Below are positions 24,779 to 35,426 of a DNA stretch of 35,426 nt, one piece after another; position 1 is the stretch's first letter; the number at the start of each line of letters is the position of its first letter. Source of the DNA: a virus. A model generated the notes under the pieces. It saw only the letters and a program-made list of their open reading frames with translations, was not told the origin of the DNA and did not search any database. The stretch is taken from positions 1-35,426 of IMG/VR virus record IMGVR_UViG_3300047163_000050, one strand, 5' to 3'. Made by a program: the position numbers and the translations under genes.

Positions 24779-26386
24779 TCAGGTGTTGCTTGCGAGTTGC
24801 ATCCAGACCTCCACGGCCGAATATCCGGTGAATGTCAGGACGAGCGCGTCGGCGTAGTCGGGGCTAGCGATGCCGCGGCGGGCAAGGCGATCTTTCGATT
24901 CGATGGCGATCCTGCCCTTCTCGTTCCGCGTCCATTTGACAAGACTGATCTGGCTTGCAAGCGCAGTCGCATCTGGGCCTTCGGTATCGTCGGGCAAAAC
25001 GATCAATTCGGAGACGGGGTGATCCTGGCCGCCGTCTCTGCCTTCAAGAAAAAACAGCTTCTCGTGAGACGCCTTGAAGCGTTCCCGCATCAGCCACCAG
25101 GCTTCCGCCTTAAGGTTCGCGAACTTGTCGGCGCTGGTCTCGCCGTCGGGCCAGTCCATATCGGTCGGCGGCATGCCGACATTGACACCGATGGTCGTTA
25201 GAAACGAACGCTGGGCATGGGCAAGCGCCGCCTCGACACCTTGGCCGACCCCCACGTTGTCGAAGCGCAGCGATCGAACTTTGCATGCGACGCCGTTGGA
25301 TTTGACCATCTGGGCCGCTTGGCACGCATCCAGCATCCTGTGCGCGGTTTCGATGGTGTCGGGCTCGCCCCAGGATTTCGGTATCCCGACCACAGGCCCG
25401 AACCTCGGCACGAGCACCGATTTCGCTTTGCCGGCACCCACGTCGCCACCGGCAATCCCTTCGATGGCAGGTTCGATCTTCACAAGCTTGCCGATGCGTT
25501 TGGCGCTTTCGACCCAGCTCGACGGGATGCAGATGCCTTCCACGGAGGCCGCATAGTCGATTTCGTATTCGCTCGCCCATTTGAACGGCTCGGTCTTCGC
25601 CCTCATTTTGGCAATGAGCTCGGGCGTCATGAGCGGGTTGTCGGAGTAGTGGAAGCGGAAAATCTGGCGCGGCGCCAGCGTTCCTCCGAAACGCTTGCGA
25701 TAGAACAGATTTCCGGGTCCGTTGACCGTGGACCCCCAAATCCTCGTATAGGTGTTTGCCGTCGTTGCGGCATCGATCAGATCGGCGCGGTCGATGAACG
25801 CGGCCTCGTCGATCACGTAGAGCGAGGAGCGTCCGCCGCGACCTGCGTTATCGCCCGTCTCGCCAGCAATGATGCCTTGATGCGAAGGGTGGATGATCCG
25901 CATGTAATTGAAATGCTTCCGCTCGCTGAAACCGTGCGGCAACATCCAATGGGGCAAGCCCAGAATGAGCATGCGAATTTTCTGGAAAATCGAATCCGGG
26001 TCGTTGGCTCGATCGACAAGCGTTTCGACGCGGCTCGCAAATGTGGTCTTGAACCCCGGATGAAACAGCCAGCGATGCGCGGCATAGCCGCCGACGACCC
26101 AGGTGAAACCAATCTCTCGGCTTTTCTCGACCAGGCCGTCTTCGCGGTTAACGATGCGCTCGTCGAGCCAATTCACGAGTTCGACTTGGCGCGGGAACAG
26201 ATCAAGCGGCAGCCACGAAATGTCGCCGCCCTCGGTGCGCCTTGGATCGTAGGTCCAAACCCACCAATGAAACCAGTGCAGGATGTCGCGCCTGCACATC
26301 TCAATCTCGATCGGGATTAGCTCCGGTCTAGTGGACAGAAGCCGCTGGCGCAGCAATCTCCTCTCGATAGAGTCGCGCAAGTTCAT
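24779..26386 (-). CDS. Terminase large subunit
   Basis: The 535-residue DNA packaging motor has an ATPase and a nuclease half. Visible motifs: FPRQVELVNWL (64-74), a Walker A variant EKSREIGFTW (87-96), Walker B LYVIDEAAF (189-197) and coupling motif STVNGPGN (219-226). The RNase H-like nuclease has GGDVG (313-317), RFDNVG (374-379) and SPDYADAL (508-515), supplying acidic residues for metal binding. The R/K-S-R-x-x-G form of Walker A is usual in T4-like terminases. It begins 59 bases inside the small subunit gene, with a weak ribosome site, so coupling is likely. Confidence 0.95.
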   Translation of the reverse strand: MNLRDSIERRLLRQRLLSTRPELIPIEIEMCRRDILHWFHWWVWTYDPRRTEGGDISWLPLDLFPRQVELVNWLDERIVNREDGLVEKSREIGFTWVVGGYAAHRWLFHPGFKTTFASRVETLVDRANDPDSIFQKIRMLILGLPHWMLPHGFSERKHFNYMRIIHPSHQGIIAGETGDNAGRGGRSSLYVIDEAAFIDRADLIDAATTANTYTRIWGSTVNGPGNLFYRKRFGGTLAPRQIFRFHYSDNPLMTPELIAKMRAKTEPFKWASEYEIDYAASVEGICIPSSWVESAKRIGKLVKIEPAIEGIAGGDVGAGKAKSVLVPRFGPVVGIPKSWGEPDTIETAHRMLDACQAAQMVKSNGVACKVRSLRFDNVGVGQGVEAALAHAQRSFLTTIGVNVGMPPTDMDWPDGETSADKFANLKAEAWWLMRERFKASHEKLFFLEGRDGGQDHPVSELIVLPDDTEGPDATALASQISLVKWTRNEKGRIAIESKDRLARRGIASPDYADALVLTFTGYSAVEVWMQLASNT

Positions 26387-26927
26387 CCAGAGGCAACGCT
26401 TTCAGCTGATCGGTGTCGAGTAAAACTTTGTGGGAATGGTTGACTTCAACGGGCGTCGAGGTATGAGCGACCGCCACCTTGTCGGAATAGTCTTCAAGCA
26501 ATTTCGACAGCATCCATTTGCGGCTGTCGACCCTGAGCCGGGATCGGGCAACGGCTTCCTTGTTGAGAACGACCTGGCTCTCGCCGTTTTTCAACTCGAT
26601 CTCCATCCAGTCGTTGCGGGCGTCGTCGGCGATGTCGATGATCTCGTCGGCCATCAGGTCTAGCCTGATCCGCCGCGCCCTGTCGTAGCGAGCCGCGAAT
26701 CCATCGACGTCGCGGTTTGCCCAACGCACAATCGTGACCCTGTTGGGCATCTCGTCGTCGCGCTCGATCTGACGCAGGGTCTCGCCACAGGCGATGCGGT
26801 CGCAAATCTTCAAACCGAGCGCTCGGCTATAGCGGACGGTCTTGCGCCGGGTTTTCTGCTCCATGCGGGCGGTGATTTTGACGCTCGGCTCCGCGCCGTC
26901 CTCTGTCGTTGAATGATCGTTGTCCAC
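26328..26927 (-). CDS. Terminase small subunit
   Basis: The 199-residue protein recognises the packaging site and loads the large subunit. It has a helix-turn-helix-like segment, IACGETLRQIERDDEMPNRV (45-64) with TIVRWANRD after it, the typical 'G.Sl..I......P...Tv..W' DNA-binding pattern of small terminases, then a long helical oligomerisation region containing MADEIIDIADDARNDW and RKWMLSKLLEDYSDKV. It is the first gene of the late operon, downstream of a promoter and terminator. Translation starts at GTG with GGAG four bases upstream; an ATG at 26864 is an alternative. Confidence 0.88.
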   Translation of the reverse strand: MDNDHSTTEDGAEPSVKITARMEQKTRRKTVRYSRALGLKICDRIACGETLRQIERDDEMPNRVTIVRWANRDVDGFAARYDRARRIRLDLMADEIIDIADDARNDWMEIELKNGESQVVLNKEAVARSRLRVDSRKWMLSKLLEDYSDKVAVAHTSTPVEVNHSHKVLLDTDQLKALPLDELARLYREEIAAPAASVH

Positions 26928-26935
26928 GTCACTCC

Positions 26936-26966
26936 GGGCAAAATAAAACCCGCCAGAAGCGGGTTT
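26936..26966 (-). terminator. Intrinsic terminator just upstream of the terminase genes
   Basis: Read on the minus strand, AAACCCGC and GCGGGTTT form a perfect eight-pair stem around the five-base loop TTCTG, followed directly by TATTTTG to give a U-rich tail. It stands between the promoter at 26993-27037 and the small terminase start. On the plus strand the stem is followed by G-rich sequence, so it should act mainly on leftward transcripts. It would stop early transcripts and also those from the adjacent promoter unless antiterminated. Confidence 0.8.
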
Positions 26967-27065: not shown

Positions 27066-27200
27066 TTAGCTGACGGAAAAATGCGCGCCCTTTCTTTGGT
27101 CTTCAACATATTGCCGCACGATGGTCAGCGGCGCTCCGCCGCACGAAGCGGCGAAGTAGGAGTCGCCGCACTTGCGTTGGTGATCCATTTCGTCGCCCAT
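27066..27200 (-). pseudogene. Remnant of an IS200/IS605-type transposase (TnpA C-terminus)
   Basis: A 44-codon frame encodes the C-terminal piece CGDSYFAASCGGAPLTIVRQ followed by YVEDQRKG. This matches the end of IS200/IS605 TnpA proteins, where a Trp/Cys-x-x-SYF-A-S-x-GGAPL-x-x-x-x-QYI-E-Q pattern follows the catalytic tyrosine helix. The HUH motif and the rest of the gene are absent, so it cannot be active. It lies in the otherwise gene-free 376-bp region between the accessory cassette and the late promoter, suggesting an old insertion at the junction. Confidence 0.7.
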
Positions 27201-27201
27201 A

Positions 27202-27233
27202 AAAAAGGGACTTATATACTTGACTCCCTTTTT
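27202..27233. terminator. Symmetric hairpin, possible bidirectional terminator
   Basis: AAAAAGGGA (27202-27210) and TCCCTTTTT (27225-27233) are perfect nine-base inverted arms around a 14-base AT-rich loop. Runs of T follow the stem on both strands, so it may end leftward transcription of the accessory cassette. The stem has only three strong G-C pairs plus flanking A-T pairs, so its strength is uncertain. It could instead be a leftover end structure of the transposon remnant beside it. Confidence 0.45.
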
Positions 27234-27303: not shown

Positions 27304-27729
27304 CTAGAGATCCTCTAAGCATGGCAGGCTCTTAACGCGCCGGTATGCGGCCGGGAGAGAAAGGGCTTTGACAGGGCTAGGCCCGTTGCTCCATACTGAG
27401 CATTCCAAACCACGTCTTCCCTCGTCAGCCACGCTAGGCATTCTATCGATCTGCTCCGTTCCAAAAAGCAGAGCGAATGGTTTATCGCTGCCATCCTCGA
27501 ACAGCACCTCAATGGCGTCAGCGCGGTTTTTATCCGGCCACGGTCCCCGCGATATGATCGCTTCTCGTGCGGTTTTCATGTCGGAAAGCGCGATCTCAAG
27601 GATTTTAGGCAGCAATAACCGGAAAGCTCCAGAATTGACGCTCAGATATAGTATTCCACGCCTGGCATATTCAGATTGCCAATAGTTCGTTGATGCGATC
27701 TCTCTGCCGTTGTTCGAGATTACGAGCAT
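27304..27729 (-). CDS. Unknown protein, last gene of the accessory cassette
   Basis: This 141-residue protein is not recognised. It begins MLVISNNGREIASTNYWQSE, then YARRGILYLSVNSGAFRLLL, and has a likely alpha/beta fold (AIEVLFEDGSDKPFALLFG, 72-90). The ATG lies ten bases inside the IbrB-like gene, with GGGAG upstream, so it is translated with the IbrA/IbrB pair and may work with it. The C-terminal 40 residues are less ordered. No catalytic motif is evident. Confidence 0.75.
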   Translation of the reverse strand: MLVISNNGREIASTNYWQSEYARRGILYLSVNSGAFRLLLPKILEIALSDMKTAREAIISRGPWPDKNRADAIEVLFEDGSDKPFALLFGTEQIDRMPSVADEGRRGLECSVWSNGPSPVKALSLPAAYRRVKSLPCLEDL

Positions 27730-28406
27730 TCTATAATCGACTCCCTAGAACACAGTTCGCGCTCATCAATGTCCCAAGCCATGCTAAAATTCCGGTCTGC
27801 GAATAGCTCGGCTAGGCCGGTGATCTGTTTTAGGCGCAAAACCTCATCCTGATCCATTCCGAGTTCCTTGGCAATTTTCTCGTCCGGCCATGCTTTCTTG
27901 GTGAGTTCCGACACGATCTTCGACATCTCGTCGACGCCATGGCGCCCGCGGGCTCGATTATGACGTATCGTGGAAGCCATCCGGTCTGTTTCGCCGTGAC
28001 GCTCGGCCCGGATGCGAACGACCGGCAAGTGCCCCTTCACGCGGCTCCGGATTGCTTTGTTTTCGCGGGCGATCCGGCTACGGTGGAAGCCGTCAACGAC
28101 GGTGAGGTGGTCATTCTCCGGAAAGGTCACCACGGGCTGCGTATAGCCGTCCGCGTCGATCGAGAGACCAAGAAGGCGCATCTCAGGCGGTGCGACCGTG
28201 TTCGGATTGTAATGGTTGGCCTGCACCTCTTCGATCGGAACCCACTCGACGCAATCGACGGGCTCATTTTTAAATGGCGAGACCTCATGGAGGGCACGCT
28301 TGACCTGATTGAGTGTGTCGATCCGGTCAATTTCAGGAAGTTCGCCAATGCGCCGCGCTAATTCCCTCGCCTCAACAATAAGAGCGTGCTGCACTAAAGA
28401 CCCCAT
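27720..28406 (-). CDS. IbrB-like ParB-fold protein
   Basis: A 228-residue protein of the ParB/sulfiredoxin-fold group. WVPIEEVQANHYNPNTVAPP (55-74) is the ParB-type opening, then VVDGFHRSRIARE (103-115) is the nucleotide-binding box, with DGFHR echoing the DGQHR motif of DndB-type proteins. IRHNRARGRH (147-156) matches the 'N..R..h' box, and a helix-turn-helix follows (WPDEKIAKELGMDQDEVLRL, 173-192). In E. coli, IbrB acts with IbrA to raise expression of eib genes. Here it follows the IbrA-like gene with a 13-base overlap and has AGGAGG five bases before its ATG. Direct DNA targets are unknown. Confidence 0.85.
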   Translation of the reverse strand: MGSLVQHALIVEARELARRIGELPEIDRIDTLNQVKRALHEVSPFKNEPVDCVEWVPIEEVQANHYNPNTVAPPEMRLLGLSIDADGYTQPVVTFPENDHLTVVDGFHRSRIARENKAIRSRVKGHLPVVRIRAERHGETDRMASTIRHNRARGRHGVDEMSKIVSELTKKAWPDEKIAKELGMDQDEVLRLKQITGLAELFADRNFSMAWDIDERELCSRESIIECS

Positions 28407-29698
28407 TCAGCCCTCCTCTTTTTCATAATCTTGAGATAGCGCTCATAGCTGCCGCTTGCGTGCTGGCCAAAACCAAGGCTTTTGCACCACCAATCGTTCT
28501 TGAGTAGCGCCTTGCAAAGCCGCCGCCAGGATGGAACACGCCGGGCAGCCTCCTCTTTCGGGTCGGCCTCATCGGGGATGCCGTGCGGATAGCCGCGCAG
28601 CCGATACCATTGGATGAACACGGCAAATTTGTTCTCGAAATGGAGTCGGGTCTTTTCCGGCATGCTGGCGAGCAGGAGTTTTGCGAAACTCTCCCAGCTA
28701 TGGCCTGGCGGCCGCTTGATCCGGATATTGCCGAGAATGTTCCCGGAATCTCGCGCATAAAGTGCGCCGCTATTCGCCCCGGCAACGCGGGCGATCACGG
28801 CCGGCCATGTGCGCGGTTCGAGGATATGAAACAACCATAGCCCCTTGCGCTGGTCATCGCCATACGGCTGGCAAATCCGCATCTGATGAATACTAAGCCC
28901 GGCCCGGTGCATTAAATTATAAATATCGTTATAGGGCGCACCGGATCGCGCGAAATAGGTCCAGATATCGTCCGCGCGCCAATCGTAGATCGGATAGACG
29001 TTAAAGACGCTCCCGCGCTTCCAAACAGTCCAGCGATGCCCCTCAAATCGCGTGGCCCTGCCCATAAGAACCCTGAACCGATTAAGGCTCTCGTCGCAAC
29101 GGATGCCGACAAGGCAAGCCGTTAGTTCCCCGTTCGAATGCCAGTGAGCAAAGTCACAAATGAAATCCTCGAACTCCATCCCGATTTCGAAAAACGGGAA
29201 CTGCTTGGGATCGGTAATCGCGCCTTTTGGCGGTTGCCTGACCCATAAGTCGCGCTGATCCGGGTCCCAACACAACCACTGTGGCTGATAGGCGCTCACG
29301 GCGTTTCTGAGGCTCAATGGCAGCGCTACCCAATATGGCCTGGCGACATCAGCATGCCGCGCAAACATCTCCTCGACGTGGTTGATCGTTGCTGCATACT
29401 GCGCCTCAAGATCAACAAAGAGCACGCCGAACGTTCGGCCAGTGCGCCGCGCTTCCGCCGCGCAAAGATCGAACATAACCGAGCTGTCCTTGCCGCCGGA
29501 AAACGAGATGTAAACGTTTGTGAACCGTTGAAATACTAGCGCGATCCGTTCGCTCGCAGCCGTAAAAACATCGATATCTAGTGGTTTTTTGAGAGCCAGC
29601 TTCTGGCTTCTGTCTCCGATATTTCGATCAAATCCCCGTCCTCCACGATCGCATAGAACTCCCTGGACTTGCTCCAGGATATCGGTTGCCTGATCCAA
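28394..29698 (-). CDS. IbrA-like PP-loop protein (PAPS reductase type, DUF3440)
   Basis: The 434-residue protein has a PAPS-reductase/ATP-pyrophosphatase domain. SFSGGKDSS (65-73) is the PP-loop that binds ATP pyrophosphate. FVDLEAQY (94-101), GIRCDESLNR (198-207) and VYPIYDWRADDIWTYF (233-248) are the further core motifs of IbrA/DUF3440. Such enzymes activate a substrate by adenylation; DndC and SspD use related domains in DNA phosphorothioation, but the IbrA reaction is not known. The start is a TTG with AGGAG six bases upstream, 120 bases inside the previous gene; homologues usually begin near residue 35, where no standard start codon exists. Confidence 0.88.
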   Translation of the reverse strand: MDQATDILEQVQGVLCDRGGRGFDRNIGDRSQKLALKKPLDIDVFTAASERIALVFQRFTNVYISFSGGKDSSVMFDLCAAEARRTGRTFGVLFVDLEAQYAATINHVEEMFARHADVARPYWVALPLSLRNAVSAYQPQWLCWDPDQRDLWVRQPPKGAITDPKQFPFFEIGMEFEDFICDFAHWHSNGELTACLVGIRCDESLNRFRVLMGRATRFEGHRWTVWKRGSVFNVYPIYDWRADDIWTYFARSGAPYNDIYNLMHRAGLSIHQMRICQPYGDDQRKGLWLFHILEPRTWPAVIARVAGANSGALYARDSGNILGNIRIKRPPGHSWESFAKLLLASMPEKTRLHFENKFAVFIQWYRLRGYPHGIPDEADPKEEAARRVPSWRRLCKALLKNDWWCKSLGFGQHASGSYERYLKIMKKRRAEWGL

Positions 29699-29976
29699 TA
29701 GATGCTCCTGTTTTCCAAAAGATAAACCTGTTTGATCCCGCGGCTCCCAACGGAATTTGCCTCTGTGTGGTCTCGGCCAAACGCAACAAGCTGGCCCATG
29801 ACTTGGCTGCCGTTAAAACCCGTAACCTCCTTGACCATGGCCTTTAGGCCATCGCGTCTTAGGAGCTCCATGCGCTTGCGTTGGCTTACCGGTGCCCGGA
29901 TCCGGGTGGCGCGGGCTGTTGCCCAAACGTAATTGTCACCGATTGCTTCAAGGGTTAGGACATGCGTCTTATTCAT
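29578..29976 (-). CDS. Unknown protein upstream of the IbrA-like gene
   Basis: A 132-residue protein starting MNKTHVLTLEAIGDNYVWAT, with RKRMELLRRDGLKAMVKEVT in the middle and IYWIRQPISWSKSREFYAIV further on, which suggests a small alpha/beta domain. I do not recognise it. The frame extends to 30039, but the ATG at 29976, which overlaps the DUF1456 gene by eight bases, is the better start. Its last 120 bases also encode the N-terminus of the IbrA-like gene in another frame. Confidence 0.7.
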   Translation of the reverse strand: MNKTHVLTLEAIGDNYVWATARATRIRAPVSQRKRMELLRRDGLKAMVKEVTGFNGSQVMGQLVAFGRDHTEANSVGSRGIKQVYLLENRSIYWIRQPISWSKSREFYAIVEDGDLIEISETEARSWLSKNH

Positions 29977-30211
29977 CGGTAGCGATCTCGTTTTTTGCCC
30001 ATTTGGTGAGGCCATCTGTAAAAACATCGAACTCGTCATGGGTCATCAATGCTGCACGGTTTTTATCGTCTGAACGGCGAAACCAGCCATCAGCACGAGA
30101 TGAGCTTACTGGCGCACCCGCGAGATCCATAATTTTGACGATATCGTGCCGCTTTAGCCGCATGGCGATACTTATCCGCTTGAACCAAGTGTTGTAATTC
30201 ATGGTTTTCAT
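29969..30211 (-). CDS. Single-repeat DUF1456 protein (YehS-like)
   Basis: The 80-residue protein matches one repeat of DUF1456: NTWFKRISIAMRLKRHDIVK (7-26) then IMDLAGAPVSSSRADGWFRR (27-46), DDKNRAALMTHDEFDVFTDG (48-67), and a LTKWAKN end. E. coli YehS holds two such repeats, so this is half length. The fold is helical; the function of the family is unknown. The ATG overlaps the VWA gene's stop as ATGA. Finding it beside VWA and IbrA/IbrB genes in a phage suggests a role in the cassette's regulation or target recognition. Confidence 0.82.
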   Translation of the reverse strand: MKTMNYNTWFKRISIAMRLKRHDIVKIMDLAGAPVSSSRADGWFRRSDDKNRAALMTHDEFDVFTDGLTKWAKNEIATDE

Positions 30212-30783
30212 GCCTTGGGAAGGGCTAGCCTTTTGATATCCCCGGCTAGTGCTGTCGCGCCTATGGAAAATGGCCGGACAACCACCGATCCAAGCCCAGC
30301 GCGCGCTAGCGCCTGCATGAACAGGATCGCTTCTTGATCACCATCTGGGCCACAATAAAGCACATTGATGATGCCGGTCAGAGCCCGCGCAGCCGCAAGA
30401 GCCATGGCCTTATCATCTGGCTGGCCATCTGAAATCACAAGCGTTGTGGCGGGCTTGTAACGCGCCGCTAATTCGAGCGCGAGATGAAGCGCTGTGCCGC
30501 CGTTGGGGTCTGGAAGCTCGCTTACCTCATGGGCCATAGCCGAGAACGCGATCAGCCTGGCATTCTCCGGCTTTTGGCTCACGGCCTCGCGAAGGATATC
30601 GATTTTTCGCCGCGTTCCGGTGCTTTCGCTCATGCTGCCGGATACATCGGCGACAATGAGGATCGCCCCACTACTTCCGGTCATCCGCGAGCTAACCTTT
30701 TGGGTTGCCCCCGTATGTGCCGGAAGGGTGGTTGCCGCCCGCTTGATAAGCGAGGCGAGAGGATTTGCAGGCAGGGTTGTCAT
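30208..30783 (-). CDS. VWA domain protein with complete MIDAS motif
   Basis: The 191-residue protein is almost entirely a von Willebrand factor A domain. The MIDAS site is complete: DVSGSMS (46-52, DxSxS), GGTALH (95-100, the Thr) and ISDGQPDD (117-124, the Asp), so it should bind a divalent metal and a protein ligand. A basic/Thr-rich N-terminal 35 residues precede the domain. No MoxR-type AAA ATPase, the frequent partner of small VWA proteins, is present here. It is linked to both neighbours by ATGA overlaps, so it is made in fixed proportion with them. Confidence 0.88.
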   Translation of the reverse strand: MTTLPANPLASLIKRAATTLPAHTGATQKVSSRMTGSSGAILIVADVSGSMSESTGTRRKIDILREAVSQKPENARLIAFSAMAHEVSELPDPNGGTALHLALELAARYKPATTLVISDGQPDDKAMALAAARALTGIINVLYCGPDGDQEAILFMQALARAGLGSVVVRPFSIGATALAGDIKRLALPKA

Positions 30784-31439
30784 GCGGATTGCCTCATTTT
30801 AAGGTATTCCTCAGGAAATGGCAGTTCAGGCACTTCGGCGGATTTGGCCTCGTCGCAAACGACGGTGACGGAGCTCCAGTTTTTCGCCGTGTGCCTAGCT
30901 ATCGTGAGCAAAACCGGCTTGATCTTGGAATCAATTTGCGATGTGGTAAGTTTCCCCGGCGCATTTTTGCTATTGCCGGTGTGATAATAGATCGCGTGAG
31001 GCCCTTCTTTTCCACCATAGCGGTTTGTGCGTAGACCAGGGCCGTCGAAATAAACACGCCTCTCGGTTTTTTCCTTATTCTGCCAGACGGTTAGCGTCCA
31101 GCCGGAGCCAAGTGTTTCGTCTATCATTCTGGCATCGCGTTTTTTTTTTGCCCAAAGGCGCTCTTGTGGATTTAATGGCGGCGGTGGTGGAGGGTTGGCG
31201 GCGCGCGCGGCTGCACGGGCTTCCTCTTCAATCCTCTTGCGCTGCGCATCTCGAATAGCCGCGAGCTCGGCGTCATTCGAGAGTGCTGCAATGCGCATAG
31301 CCTCACTCTCTTCCAGGACCGCAGATTTCATGGCGACCTGGAGATCATATTTCCGGCGTCCTGCCTCAGCGGCAATCAGGCGAGCCAGCCCTACCAATTG
31401 ATCATCCGTGAGGATTGACAGGTCCAACGGGTCGCTCAT
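30780..31439 (-). CDS. Unknown protein with coiled N-terminus and Pro-rich linker
   Basis: A 219-residue protein. Residues about 8-80 are helical and charged (EEARAAARAAN at the end), followed by a poly-Pro linker (PPPPPPL, 82-88), then a folded C-terminal part with WTLTVWQNKEKTERRVYFDG (113-132) and PGLRTNRYGGKEGPHAIYYH (133-152). The last segment resembles nothing I recognise. ATGA overlaps bind it to both neighbours, so it is an integral member of the cassette. A DNA- or protein-binding scaffold is possible but unproven. Confidence 0.75.
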   Translation of the reverse strand: MSDPLDLSILTDDQLVGLARLIAAEAGRRKYDLQVAMKSAVLEESEAMRIAALSNDAELAAIRDAQRKRIEEEARAAARAANPPPPPPLNPQERLWAKKKRDARMIDETLGSGWTLTVWQNKEKTERRVYFDGPGLRTNRYGGKEGPHAIYYHTGNSKNAPGKLTTSQIDSKIKPVLLTIARHTAKNWSSVTVVCDEAKSAEVPELPFPEEYLKMRQSA

Positions 31440-31981
31440 TGGGCTTCCCGCGTTTTCTTGGCGGCATTGAGCATGCGCTCGTAATGTATCTTGACTTTCT
31501 CAGCAGCGTCGCGAGCATAAGAATCGACACGATGGTTATTATCGATCCACCATTTCGCATCGTCCTGCTTTAGGAGCGCGCCGCGGGCCGCGTGTGCCGC
31601 GTCATAGATAGCTTTGCAAGCGATCTTGAAATCTTCGACATCCCATCCAAAGCGTTTTGCGGCTTCCTCATTTGAGCCATAAAACTCTTCATCTGAAACG
31701 ATAGGATTGTTGTCTTTCGAGGCTAAGGCTTTCGCGCGGATAGATTCAGCCCATGCGATTTGCTTTGGCGATCCCTGAAGGATCGGAAGTCCCGTTGCTT
31801 TGGCTTTTTCTGCCGCCTCTGCGCTTTCAGCGGCTCGCTTAACTGCTAGATCAGCCTCGTAGCATTCGCGGCATGGCCGTTCGGCGAGCCACTTGACTTT
31901 GCGATCACGCTGCTGGCGATTGCCAAACACAACGACAATGCCTTCGTGGCCGCAGGAAAAAGTAACGTGTTCTTTCGACAT
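31436..31981 (-). CDS. CGH/CxxC protein, first gene of the accessory cassette
   Basis: The 181-residue protein opens with MSKEHVTFSCGHEGIVVVFG, and RPCRECYEAD lies at 36-45; the CGH and CxxC groups could form a zinc site. The segment GLPILQGSPKQIAWAESIR (64-82) resembles the 'LxGSxKQIxWAExIR' motif of small phage and bacterial proteins of unknown function. Helical residues follow, with WDVEDFKIACKAIYDAAHAA near the end. GGAG lies close before the ATG, and a promoter with operator stands just upstream, so it is the first gene of the transcript. Confidence 0.8.
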   Translation of the reverse strand: MSKEHVTFSCGHEGIVVVFGNRQQRDRKVKWLAERPCRECYEADLAVKRAAESAEAAEKAKATGLPILQGSPKQIAWAESIRAKALASKDNNPIVSDEEFYGSNEEAAKRFGWDVEDFKIACKAIYDAAHAARGALLKQDDAKWWIDNNHRVDSYARDAAEKVKIHYERMLNAAKKTREAQ

Positions 31982-32020: not shown

Positions 32021-32049
32021 CTAATATAGGCCACTGGCCTATGTGTCAA
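32021..32049 (-). promoter_or_regulatory. Cassette promoter with palindromic operator
   Basis: On the minus strand, a perfect -35 TTGACA (32049-32044) is followed by two possible -10 elements: TATATT after 15 bases (32028-32023) or TATTAG after 17 (32026-32021). Between them sits a perfect 17-bp palindrome, ATAGGCCA-C-TGGCCTAT (32026-32042). A protein bound there would cover the spacer, so it is probably a repressor operator. It controls the eight-gene cassette. Confidence 0.65.
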
Positions 32050-33090: not shown

Positions 33091-33515
33091 CAGCGAGCGG
33101 CCTGCGGTATCGGGGCGCGGTCGCCCGCCACGAGTTTGCAGACGATGCTGAGTTCGGCCACGATCATGGCGACGCCTGCCGCGAGATCGTCGTCGTCGCC
33201 CACGGTGACGAGCCACTGGTCCTGCCGGTCGCGGATCAAATCAAGGATGCGGCGACGTTCGGTTTCTGCGGCATCGGCGACGCGAGAATTGCACTGCCGA
33301 GTGAACTGTTCGTGCGCTCCCATCATGGCGAGCCATCGTCTCGCATCCGGCAAATACGCCATCCAGCGCGGCACACCGAATTCCGGCGGCAGCGTCTCGG
33401 GCATGGGCTGTTCCTTGCCGTTCACGATGCGGATCGTCTCGTCTGCGTCTTTGCCGTCGTTCAGGCACGCGGCGCGGGCGCAGGCTTCGCTGGCGGCGTC
33501 GAACTCTGTGGTCAT
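33090..33515 (-). CDS. Unknown 141-residue protein
   Basis: The protein is helical and acidic, with DETIRIVNGKEQPMPETLPP (25-44) and EFGVPRWMAYLPDARRWLAM (45-64), and near the C-terminus ELSIVCKLVAGDRAP. I recognise no domain. Its ATG overlaps the stop of the out-of-frame reading frame in the methyltransferase gene (ATGA), not the methyltransferase stop, which lies 24 bases upstream. AAAGGA stands between that stop and the ATG. Confidence 0.7.
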   Translation of the reverse strand: MTTEFDAASEACARAACLNDGKDADETIRIVNGKEQPMPETLPPEFGVPRWMAYLPDARRWLAMMGAHEQFTRQCNSRVADAAETERRRILDLIRDRQDQWLVTVGDDDDLAAGVAMIVAELSIVCKLVAGDRAPIPQAAR

Positions 33516-34513
33516 GAGCGGCGTTCCTTTCGAGATTTACGGCTTGCAGTCTTGCGCGGCTTTGATGAATTCGGCGGCGAGGACCGCGTTGATCGCGTTG
33601 CCGTAGGCGCGTAATCGTCCCATTCGGCCCTTAACCCCTGTAGCCAGAGGGAATGAATTGGGTTGAGCTGATACCCGCCGCGCTCCATCTGAGCATTGAA
33701 CGGCGATTGTGGGTCCATTCCATTGCGGCACACCAGCTTGCATTGCGTATCCAACGAGTCCGCGATGCCTTTCGCCGCGCGGGCGATAGAGACGCCATTG
33801 CCCTTGTGATCTCGCGCTTTCGGCGTCGCCCAGCCCTTCAATGTCTGCGCTTGATCTTGGAGCGTTACCTGATGACCGCCTGCTTTGCGCTTCGCTGGGT
33901 CTTGCGGACCGCCCCGTATGTTCGTGTCCGGCGTCGGCCAGCCCACTAGAGCTATTCGAGATTGAGCTGAAAGACCCATGTTCACTTTCCGGCCATCGCC
34001 TCGGCTGTAAGTGTAGCCGCTCCCCGTCGCATCGTTCACGATCGGCGTAGGCCACCCAATAAAGGCGCTGGCGGATGTTCGGTGCGCCGACGCCCGCAGA
34101 GCACAGATCGGCAGCCCCGCAGGCATATCCCACTGCTTCCAGATCAGCGCGTACTCCGGCGAGCCATTCACGTCCATCCTTGCTCGCAGACTGTTCTCCA
34201 AAGACGACTGGAGGGCGGCACTCTTCGATGAGACGGTGAAAAGCGGGCCAGAGGTGTCGTTCGTCAAGATGGGCTTTTCGCTGTCCAGCGACCGAAAGCG
34301 GCTGACAGGGACATGATCCGGTCCAGACGGGCCGTTCATCCGGCCAGCCCGCGCGGCGAAGCGCATCCGACCAGATTCCGATACCGGCGAAGAAGTGGCA
34401 TTGGGTATAGCCTTCGAGGTCTTCAGGCTGGACTTCGATAATGCTTCGCTGGTCAACGTCTCCTGGGGCAATAAGCCCGGCAGAAATAAGGTTTCGGAGC
34501 CACTGTGCGGCAT
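33512..34513 (-). CDS. Out-of-frame reading frame overlapping the cytosine methyltransferase
   Basis: A 333-codon frame lies almost wholly inside the methyltransferase gene in another phase. It has no stop for 1 kb and carries repeated motifs: FIGWPTPIVNDATGSGYTYS, LVGWPTPDTN and KGWATPKARDHKGNG, with LNPIHSLWLQG and WDDYAPTATRS near the end. Protein predictions with this GWPTP pattern are familiar to me from other phage cytosine-methyltransferase loci, which suggests that the second frame is conserved. Its stop overlaps the next gene's ATG as ATGA, the joint used throughout this operon. The product may be real, or the pattern may only mirror conserved methyltransferase codons. Confidence 0.45.
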   Translation of the reverse strand: MPHSGSETLFLPGLLPQETLTSEALSKSSLKTSKAIPNATSSPVSESGRMRFAARAGRMNGPSGPDHVPVSRFRSLDSEKPILTNDTSGPLFTVSSKSAALQSSLENSLRARMDVNGSPEYALIWKQWDMPAGLPICALRASAHRTSASAFIGWPTPIVNDATGSGYTYSRGDGRKVNMGLSAQSRIALVGWPTPDTNIRGGPQDPAKRKAGGHQVTLQDQAQTLKGWATPKARDHKGNGVSIARAAKGIADSLDTQCKLVCRNGMDPQSPFNAQMERGGYQLNPIHSLWLQGLRAEWDDYAPTATRSTRSSPPNSSKPRKTASRKSRKERRS

Positions 34514-34544
34514 AGGGGTCGACCTCGTTGTAATAGGCGGTCAT
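33537..34544 (-). CDS. DNA cytosine-5 methyltransferase
   Basis: A 335-residue phage C5-methyltransferase. Motif I is CHFFAGIGIW (49-58), motif IV SCPCQPLSVAG (77-87) with catalytic Cys80, motif VI FGEQSAS (115-121) in which the Glu is kept although the usual ENV is EQS, motif VIII NIRQRLYWVA (156-165), and motif X MGRLRAYGNAIN near the C-terminus. The long low-complexity middle is the variable target-recognition region, so the sequence recognised cannot be read. It would protect phage DNA from restriction. The ATG at 34544 overlaps the leader peptide's stop as ATGA with GGGAG eleven bases before it; a longer frame from 34610 is unlikely. Confidence 0.92.
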   Translation of the reverse strand: MTAYYNEVDPYAAQWLRNLISAGLIAPGDVDQRSIIEVQPEDLEGYTQCHFFAGIGIWSDALRRAGWPDERPVWTGSCPCQPLSVAGQRKAHLDERHLWPAFHRLIEECRPPVVFGEQSASKDGREWLAGVRADLEAVGYACGAADLCSAGVGAPNIRQRLYWVAYADRERCDGERLHLQPRRWPESEHGSFSSISNSSSGLADAGHEHTGRSARPSEAQSRRSSGNAPRSSADIEGLGDAESARSQGQWRLYRPRGERHRGLVGYAMQAGVPQWNGPTIAVQCSDGARRVSAQPNSFPLATGVKGRMGRLRAYGNAINAVLAAEFIKAAQDCKP

Positions 34545-34603
34545 TGGGCAGGCAACTCCCGCAAAGCATCGAACACGTCGGCGGTGATAATCTGCACCGT
34601 CAT
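34541..34603 (-). CDS. 20-codon leader, remnant of a DNA methyltransferase start
   Basis: The frame encodes a peptide beginning MTVQIITADVFDALRELPA. This closely follows the opening of phage N6-adenine methyltransferases, which start '...IITGDxxDVLRxLPDxSV' just before their catalytic region. AAGGGGG about six bases upstream gives it a strong ribosome site, and its stop overlaps the cytosine methyltransferase start as ATGA. The likeliest reading is a deletion that removed an adenine methyltransferase and left its start as a coupling leader for the next gene. The peptide itself probably has no catalytic role. Confidence 0.6.
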   Translation of the reverse strand: MTVQIITADVFDALRELPAQ

Positions 34604-34632
34604 GCCGCACCCCCTTCGACCCGTCGCGGCGC

Positions 34633-34690
34633 GCGCAACATTTGGGGGCTCCCCCCTAGAGGGGGGAGAGCACCCCAAAGGATGTTGCGC
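34633..34690. repeat. Nested inverted repeat between helicase-type gene and methyltransferase
   Basis: Three nested arms are perfect: GCGCAACAT (34633-34641) with ATGTTGCGC (34682-34690), TTTGGGG (34641-34647) with CCCCAAA (34673-34679), and at the core CTCCCCCC-TAGA-GGGGGGAG (34649-34668). No run of T follows on either strand, so it is not an ordinary intrinsic terminator. It lies in the untranslated stretch before the methyltransferase leader and shares its outer arms with the TGTTGCG repeats. Confidence 0.7.
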
Positions 34691-35065
34691 TTGTTGCGCC
34701 CGCTCCTAACACGGGTTTGGCCGCAACGTTTTTGGATGTTGCGCGATGTTGCGGATGTTGCGCTTATGGGATCCATATCCATTCGCTCCATTGTCCAAGA
34801 CGACGATTTCCGGCGAGGTCGGCGATGTGGCGAGACATCATGGCGCGCTGCGCATTGTCCGCCTTACCCTCGAAAAACCCTAGATTTTCCACGTATCTCC
34901 GCAGTTTATGGCGCGTTACGCCGCGTACCCCTTTGGGCGTCCGGCCGATCCCAGGCATCGGTTCGCCCGCTTCCTCAATGGCCCATTTCACAGCTTTCAG
35001 AAACTCGGCGCGCTGTCCTTTTAGAGGGACAGGCGCAACATTTTCGTGTTGCGATTTATGTTGCG
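34634..35065. repeat. Iteron-like TGTTGCG array
   Basis: The heptamer TGTTGCG occurs directly at 34683, 34692, 34737, 34747, 34756, 35047 and 35059, and in reverse (CGCAACA) at 34634 and 35034; a variant CGCAACG lies near 34721. Several copies are preceded by GA or GGA, giving GGATGTTGCGC. The cluster begins inside the 3' part of the replicative ATPase gene and continues past its stop codon. Repeats of this kind beside a replication gene resemble iterons of an origin or binding sites for a regulator. Confidence 0.65.
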
Positions 35066-35426
35066 GCTCGCCTTCGATCTCGACGATGCACGTCGTCACC
35101 GGCGCGCCGTCCTCGTCGACCCCGATGTCGACGGAGCGGAGCGCAAAATCCCAAGTCAGACCGTCGGGGCCATCCTTCATTTTCGGGATGACGACGGAGT
35201 GCTTGCCGTTGTCCTCGACGACCTCCCATTCGCAATCGCACGCGCCGTGCAGCCCGGACCAGCCCCGCATACCTCGAGCCTCGTCCTTGCCCTTATGGTG
35301 AATCGCAACGACCAGGGAATCGAAGGCGTCGGCAATCAATCCCGCATTGGCGATAAATGACCCCATGCCTTCGGGCGCGCTTTCGTCGGCCCCGAACATC
35401 GTTCTTGAGAGCGTATCGATGACGAT
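34764..35426 (-). CDS. RepA/DnaB-like ATPase (AAA_25), C-terminal part, cut by window edge
   Basis: Only the C-terminal 220 residues are present; the frame runs off the right edge. The first residues read IVIDTLSRTMFGADES, the Walker B strand and following loop of RecA-like phage replication helicases of the AAA_25/RepA group. VVAIHHKGKDEARGMRGWSG, with its HH.GKD..RG.RG pattern, is the next conserved block. A winged-helix-like tail follows the Gly/Pro linker (AEFLKAVKWAIEEAGEPMPG and later YVENLGFFEG). Such proteins unwind DNA at the phage origin, often with a fused primase domain upstream, which is not visible here. Confidence 0.85.
   Translation of the reverse strand: MVIDTLSRTMFGADESAPEGMGSFIANAGLIADAFDSLVVAIHHKGKDEARGMRGWSGLHGACDCEWEVVEDNGKHSVVIPKMKDGPDGLTWDFALRSVDIGVDEDGAPVTTCIVEIEGEPQHKSQHENVAPVPLKGQRAEFLKAVKWAIEEAGEPMPGIGRTPKGVRGVTRHKLRRYVENLGFFEGKADNAQRAMMSRHIADLAGNRRLGQWSEWIWIP

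Follow-up and report, generated by a model that had tools for sequence, protein, structure and literature searches.

Comparative evidence for a composite phage cassette that links an IbrA-IbrB unit to a g2-VWA core shared with plasmids

What holds an IbrA-IbrB pair, a VWA protein, a DUF1456 protein and four further genes together in one phage operon, and what might they do there? The question is raised by the virus record IMGVR_UViG_3300047163_000050 of IMG/VR, a fragment of a contractile-tailed phage; the entire record (35,426 bases) was analyzed and is called the window here. All eight genes of the cassette (g1 to g8) are present as overlapping minus-strand open reading frames at 27304-31981. 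We find that the cassette is genuine, mobile and composite. Judged from sequence, it is made of two modules: module A, a core of g2 and a VWA protein with a metal-ion-dependent adhesion site (MIDAS), and module B, g5-IbrA-IbrB, a common phage unit that mostly occurs without module A. A preliminary description of this DNA suggested one system; the genes do form a transferable unit, but g5-IbrA-IbrB is independent and g1-g2-VWA(-g8) is a separate operon of plasmids and phages. As to function, we lean tentatively towards a cassette for mobile-element conflict (host takeover or counter-defence) or for interference with gene expression, built on an undescribed VWA core with exchangeable effectors that include IbrAB.

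The two modules are also joined in two other phages (virus records L054/L227 and L059/L226), which were found through VWA, not through IbrA. Both contain g1-g2-g5-IbrA-IbrB-VWA-g8 as a contiguous run, i.e., seven of the eight families. When all window open reading frames were compared with the first 20 kb of each sister record, the cassette genes alone matched: IbrA (57-64% identity), IbrB (55-57%), VWA (44-48%), g8 (39-48%), g1, g5, and g2 (by tblastn with L227 and by profile with L226). Conserved synteny in unrelated phages, which the preliminary description had named as the observation that would favor a single system, is thus present: outside the cassette, neither record matched the window over the parts compared. 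Because such otherwise unrelated records keep seven families contiguous, the module linkage is not accidental. The gene order differs (the window has VWA and DUF1456 before g5-IbrA-IbrB, and the sisters place IbrAB inside the core), so the linkage has survived rearrangement. IbrA occurs in 2 of the 14 other viral loci, for which the chance probability is 0.0016 at a prevalence of 0.43% (that in phage records) and 0.15 if the prevalence is 5%; both values leave out the position of IbrAB inside the operon. We consider the linkage well supported by these gene neighborhoods. The end of the L059 cassette adjoins an apparent P27-type terminase small subunit gene (by eye), and the window cassette likewise lies just upstream of terS. 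The L059 phage also has two tandem g1 homologues upstream of g2 (L226:852-2115) and, as read by eye, a fragment resembling ParB where the contig ends.

Comparison across loci shows g2 and the MIDAS VWA protein as a constant pair with g1 or g8 as frequent partners, and exchangeable genes in the adjoining slots: g5-IbrA-IbrB and DUF1456 here, an AcrVA2/FinQ-family gene or p146 elsewhere. All 18 of the other non-redundant loci have g2 next to VWA. These loci come from phages and prophage-like contigs, among other sources; one is a contig of Rhodomicrobium (L032, with g1-g2-VWA-g8 and a VWA 61% identical), and others are on Pectobacterium, Delftia, and Xanthomonas plasmids. The recurrent neighbors in this clade are g1, g2, p112, g8, p146, and helix-turn-helix (HTH) genes. 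No mutual relationship was detectable among g8, p146, and p352, or between g1 and p112. The VWA domain of g3 is recognized at E 2e-4, below the Pfam cut-off, and contains the MIDAS site DxSxS...T...D (D46, S48, S50, T97, and D119). The MIDAS residues are kept in relatives; T97 and D119 are invariant, and the first part is absent solely in the truncated reading of one locus (L026). g1 contains the motifs CGH...CxxC and a conserved LP-L-GS-KQ--WA--IR, and its homologues lie beside g2/VWA in unrelated phages and in Pectobacterium plasmids. g4 matches DUF1456 (35.1 bits against a Pfam cut-off of 27, E 1.5e-8); it is probably a regulatory or binding partner, and an optional one of the VWA core.

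g2 is predicted to have an N-terminal LDxSxLTDDQL helix, a long coiled coil, and a C-terminal alpha/beta domain. The AlphaFold (AF2) models of g2 and g8 are confident (predicted local distance difference test, pLDDT, 88.8 and 85.9). The C-terminal domain of g2 aligns with the DUF600/EsaG-like structure 8gup (Z 5.4, root-mean-square deviation 3.6, 86 aligned residues), a match that is tied with unrelated rows and too weak to rely on. For g8, eL38-like ribosomal rows (Z 3.3) were likewise too weak to use, and the viral structure library gave no match. g8 is the final cassette gene in the window and in the two sister phages, and homologues of its YedA family are found on 1,152 plasmid records. 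On the three E. coli plasmids examined (L028, L029, and L031) it is followed after 1-2 bases by resD or by another gene for a site-specific integrase. On Polaromonas plasmid pPNAP02 (L030:2924-9751), 0.8 kb separates g8 from a g1 homologue, with no VWA gene detected between the two, and an ABC-three-component system lies about 2 kb upstream of them.

On Pectobacterium plasmids (pLPa1526 and relatives) the operon is g1-p112-g2-VWA-g8-p352-HTH/DUF1456, in which five of the eight window families recur without IbrAB and the final gene encodes an HTH and DUF1456 protein. p352 (L025) is an AcrVA2 homologue (structure 7CI1, E 7e-17) that also matches plasmid FinQ proteins; the AcrVA2 family thus takes in FinQ, by which IncI plasmids inhibit fertility. 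No gene of this family is present in the window itself. The homology extends to FinQ on E. coli plasmid pEC_Bactec (L228:3540-4319; phmmer E 5.6e-12 to 7ci1), and 549 plasmid records match Pectobacterium p352, many of them annotated finQ. In close relatives the gene after VWA is swapped: it is AcrVA2-like in Vulcaniibacterium (L033) and p146 in a Xanthomonas plasmid (L024) and a phage (L057). Copies of the Pectobacterium operon lie near ardA, ardK, and mqsRA. Because the plasmid operon carries an AcrVA2/FinQ-family gene near ArdA and ArdK, the anti-defence role listed among the possibilities in the preliminary description gains support, which is circumstantial. AcrVA2 causes translation-coupled loss of cas12a mRNA (PMC13131331), transcription of F tra is terminated by FinQ (PMC8744291), and ibrB increases the expression of Eib (PMC7649339). 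Interference with gene expression may therefore be what the swapped cargo have in common, a circumstantial argument by analogy.

Module B carries the features expected of an IbrAB unit. IbrA has a PAPS_reduct domain, a DUF3440 domain (111.7 bits, cut-off 25), and the PP-loop SFSGGKDSS, which is invariant in the relatives compared and contains the SGGKDS of such units. The adjacent IbrB is ParB_N-like (phrog_2159, E 1e-74) with DGFHR and TIRHNRARG boxes, and DGFHR is invariant in 10 IbrB sequences. On the sequence features examined, the pair belongs to the IbrAB family, and the domain and motif evidence bears out what was first noticed by reading the letters: a PP-loop enzyme, a ParB-fold protein with a DGFHR box, a MIDAS protein, and a DUF1456 protein. 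IbrAB is annotated as a co-activator pair of prophage gene expression (e.g., in Escherichia phage PhiR5_2). Relatives of IbrA were found by tblastn in 216 of 50,697 phage records, and named phages carry IbrA and IbrB together without VWA. Among 87 IbrA loci (L016, L133-L212, and others), the slot directly upstream of IbrA holds g5 in 13 and a different protein, about 131 amino acids long, in 54, so g5-IbrA-IbrB is one form of a phage unit that stands on its own. The protein of the 54 loci is unrelated to g5, and the small partner of IbrA is thus of at least two unrelated types. A GNAT-like acetyltransferase gene (by eye) lies near IbrA in 10 of the 87 loci and between IbrA and IbrB in L059 (L059:4297-4710).

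In the preferred reading, g2 and VWA could form a metal-dependent scaffold that binds a client through the MIDAS site, with g1 (a zinc ribbon), g8, and DUF1456 as extra contacts to nucleic acid or host machinery. IbrA would spend ATP at the PP-loop to activate a substrate, and IbrB (ParB/sulfiredoxin NTPase-like, with DGFHR) and g5 would direct this chemistry at nucleic acid or at transcription. Overall, gene expression or the state of nucleic acids in the infected cell would be altered in favor of the phage, either by silencing defence or host genes or by activating phage genes, as AcrVA2, FinQ, and IbrAB do, each in a different way. The operator in the promoter may be the switch of the operon. 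More broadly, and with greater reserve, g2-VWA (with g1/p112 and g8) might be the chassis of an undescribed counter-defence or gene-interference system common to phages and plasmids, into which effectors are plugged: IbrAB in phages and, on plasmids and prophages, p146 or mRNA silencers of the AcrVA2/FinQ type. Several observations count against the preferred reading. Among 80 IMG/VR loci found by IbrA, none has g1, g2, or g8, one has a weak VWA-like match, and g5 is found in 9; nearly all IbrAB units thus lack the core and can do without it. Only 2 independent loci join an AcrVA2-like gene to the VWA core, and 3 join IbrAB to it, so the cargo may be a mere passenger with no joint function with VWA. 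Searches with the g2 and g8 models (Foldseek and VIA-align) gave no significant match to a solved structure.

A rather less likely alternative is DNA modification, in which DndC-like IbrA, DndB-like IbrB, and g5 put sulfur or another modification on phage DNA against restriction, with the VWA core as loader or regulator of the modifier. The PP-loop and DGFHR box are invariant, IbrAB units lie amid replication and recombination genes, the window has a gene resembling DNA methyltransferases 1.5 kb upstream of the cassette, and PADLOC gives weak DndC and BrxP matches to IbrA. These matches reach 20-23 bits against DndC models (20.2 for TIGR03183, with an NCBIfam cut-off of 290.4), and the BrxP model covers 68 residues (32 bits), with no other BREX gene found. 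No cysteine desulfurase (DndA/IscS), DndD, or DndE partner was found among ten genes scanned (the eight and two upstream), nor an Ssp partner in the cassette, and the plasmid version keeps the core without IbrAB. We prefer gene-expression interference over modification because this is what the swapped cargo appear to share.

It is unlikely that the cassette is purely regulatory, with IbrAB, the VWA core, and DUF1456 co-activating late or lysogeny genes of the phage, as for eib, and with no conflict role. The annotation and the ibrB literature point that way, as do the HTH or DUF1456 partners in several versions, the promoter with its palindrome, and the position just upstream of terS in the window and L059; IbrA, however, is a conserved enzyme beyond the needs of a simple regulator, and on plasmids the cargo of the core is an AcrVA2/FinQ relative. 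Chance neighbors, i.e., two unrelated accessory blocks inserted at one early/late boundary, are improbable. Each block does occur alone, and although the IbrA tree places the window gene apart from the two sister genes, the approximately unbiased (AU) test (p 0.57) is compatible with a single origin for all three linked genes, so the linkage may rest on one event; two independent IbrAB recruitments, suggested by the tree, were dropped for this reason. Chance would have to explain why three phages that are not otherwise related keep the seven families side by side, in two gene orders and with IbrAB within the core and not next to it, and would have to account for the low probability at the observed prevalence. 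That IbrA is a CysH-type PAPS reductase feeding host sulfur assimilation is very improbable: it has the PAPS_reduct domain and PHROG 2302 is named PAPS reductase, but models for CysH and for APS and PAPS reductases give it 14-25 bits where their cut-offs are 154-254, no ECGLH catalytic motif is present on reading the sequence, and IbrA is constantly paired with a ParB-fold protein.

The layout of the cassette is summarized in Table 1. The minus strand of the window encodes baseplate, sheath-like, head, portal, and terminase genes, and the cassette sits between terS (26328-26927, read by eye) and early genes (33512-35399), two of which resemble a methyltransferase and a helicase/primase gene. 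The methyltransferase-like gene (33512-34513) matches phrog_1008 (E 1e-23). Three 4-base ATGA joints (31439/31436, 30783/30780, and 30211/30208) and overlaps of 8 (29976/29969), 13 (28406/28394), and 10 bases (27729/27720) are as first described; the remaining overlap, given as 120 bases, is 121 (29698/29578) and is credible because the TTG start of IbrA has a good AGGAG site.

Table 1. Cassette genes and flanking features in the window.
Feature	Position	Strand	Description
g1	31436..31981	-	181-aa Zn-ribbon-like; phrog_16123
g2	30780..31439	-	219-aa protein; constant VWA neighbor
g3	30208..30783	-	VWA protein, complete MIDAS
g4	29969..30211	-	single DUF1456 domain
g5	29578..29976	-	132-aa protein, ATG at 29976
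g6 (IbrA)	28394..29698	-	PP-loop ATP pyrophosphatase and DUF3440; TTG start with Shine-Dalgarno
g7 (IbrB)	27720..28406	-	ParB/sulfiredoxin-fold protein
g8	27304..27729	-	141-aa YedA-family protein; last cassette gene
Promoter	32021..32049	-	sigma-70-like, TTGACA-17-TATTAG; read by eye
Palindrome	32026..32042	.	perfect 8+1+8, ATAGGCCACTGGCCTAT; operator-like, fills promoter spacer
Inverted repeat	27202..27233	-	terminator-like, AAAAAGGGA/TCCCTTTTT, then T; loop of 14
Transposase remnant	27066..27200	-	IS200-type (TnpA) C-terminus, cassette edge; PF01797, E 9e-4, just below Pfam cut-off

The promoter with an operator, the terminator, and the transposase remnant of the first reading are all present, the operator as an operator-like palindrome and the terminator as a terminator-like repeat. 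The consensus promoter scan demands T at the last -10 position and hence missed TATTAG, and the loop of AAAAAGGGA/TCCCTTTTT exceeds the limit of the automated terminator scan. ATAGGCCACTGGCCTAT occurs a single time in the window with up to 3 mismatches allowed. A second terminator-like hairpin (26946-26966; 9 pairs and a U-rich tail) lies between the transposase remnant and terS. The guanine-plus-cytosine (GC) content of the cassette is 55.0% against 60.6% in the rest of the record, nearly the record minimum for 4.7 kb (the lowest such stretch has 54.5%). The contrast first reported is thus real, but single genes range over 46.9-58.9% and do not stay within 47-52%. Both sister cassettes have a GC content close to the rest of their own phage, so low GC is not a property of the system, and we dropped the earlier argument from base composition to acquired DNA.

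In Pfam the cassette families are limited to DUF1456, IbrA, and, weakly, VWA and ParB_N, and g2, g5, and g8 have no confident family match in Pfam, PHROG, and other family libraries. Pattern scans with single proteins gave few relatives (none for g5, 2 for IbrA, and 1 for g8), and profile and tblastn searches were needed. A narrow g8 alignment against viral contigs found two loci, one being the contig of L054 itself. By g2 profile search the core is absent from 752 of 754 genomes (385 alphaproteobacterial and 369 gammaproteobacterial) and present in the two seed genomes only. Many other phage VWA proteins (L005-L014, L034-L040, and L073-L132), which match the window VWA at E 1e-6 to 1e-12, form a large group of their own; it was set aside as unrelated to the cassette, since its recurrent neighbors look like primase, RecT-like, and nuclease genes of replication and recombination. 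No functional study of the cassette was found in the literature on DUF3440, DUF1456, and IbrA/IbrB with VWA combinations, in a coverage that most subscription papers fall outside. The interpretation first offered is, overall, partly supported.

If the preferred reading of conflict or gene-expression interference is right, phage IbrAB, which is common and lacks a known mechanism, gains defined partners and a testable setting, and is tied to the AcrVA2/FinQ family through a common VWA core. The unannotated families g2, g5, g8, p112, and p146 can now be named as parts of mobile-element operons, and the swap slot beside VWA would be a convenient place to look for further genes of anti-defence or fertility inhibition.

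Among known systems, the MoxR-vWA counter-invader systems resemble the cassette in having a VWA protein in a mobile-element conflict setting, but the cassette VWA is not fused to a peptidase and no MoxR AAA+ ATPase was found among the cassette genes. Dnd/Ssp and type-4 BREX share a PP-loop sulfurtransferase-type enzyme (DndC, BrxP) and a ParB/sulfiredoxin relative with a DndB-like box; with scores far under the family cut-offs and no desulfurase, DndD/E, SspA-D, or PglZ, the cassette is not a standard Dnd or Ssp system, in agreement with the preliminary description. IbrAB loci including that of PhiR5_2 have the same A-B order, overlapping genes, and DUF3440 and ParB-fold domains (IbrA is 49% identical to that of PhiR5_2), but PhiR5_2 and most such loci are without g1, g2, VWA, g8, and DUF1456, and the window IbrAB lies inside that operon. 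The pLPa1526-type operon of Pectobacterium brings together five of the eight cassette families, and has an AcrVA2/FinQ-family gene and p112 in place of IbrA, IbrB, and g5.

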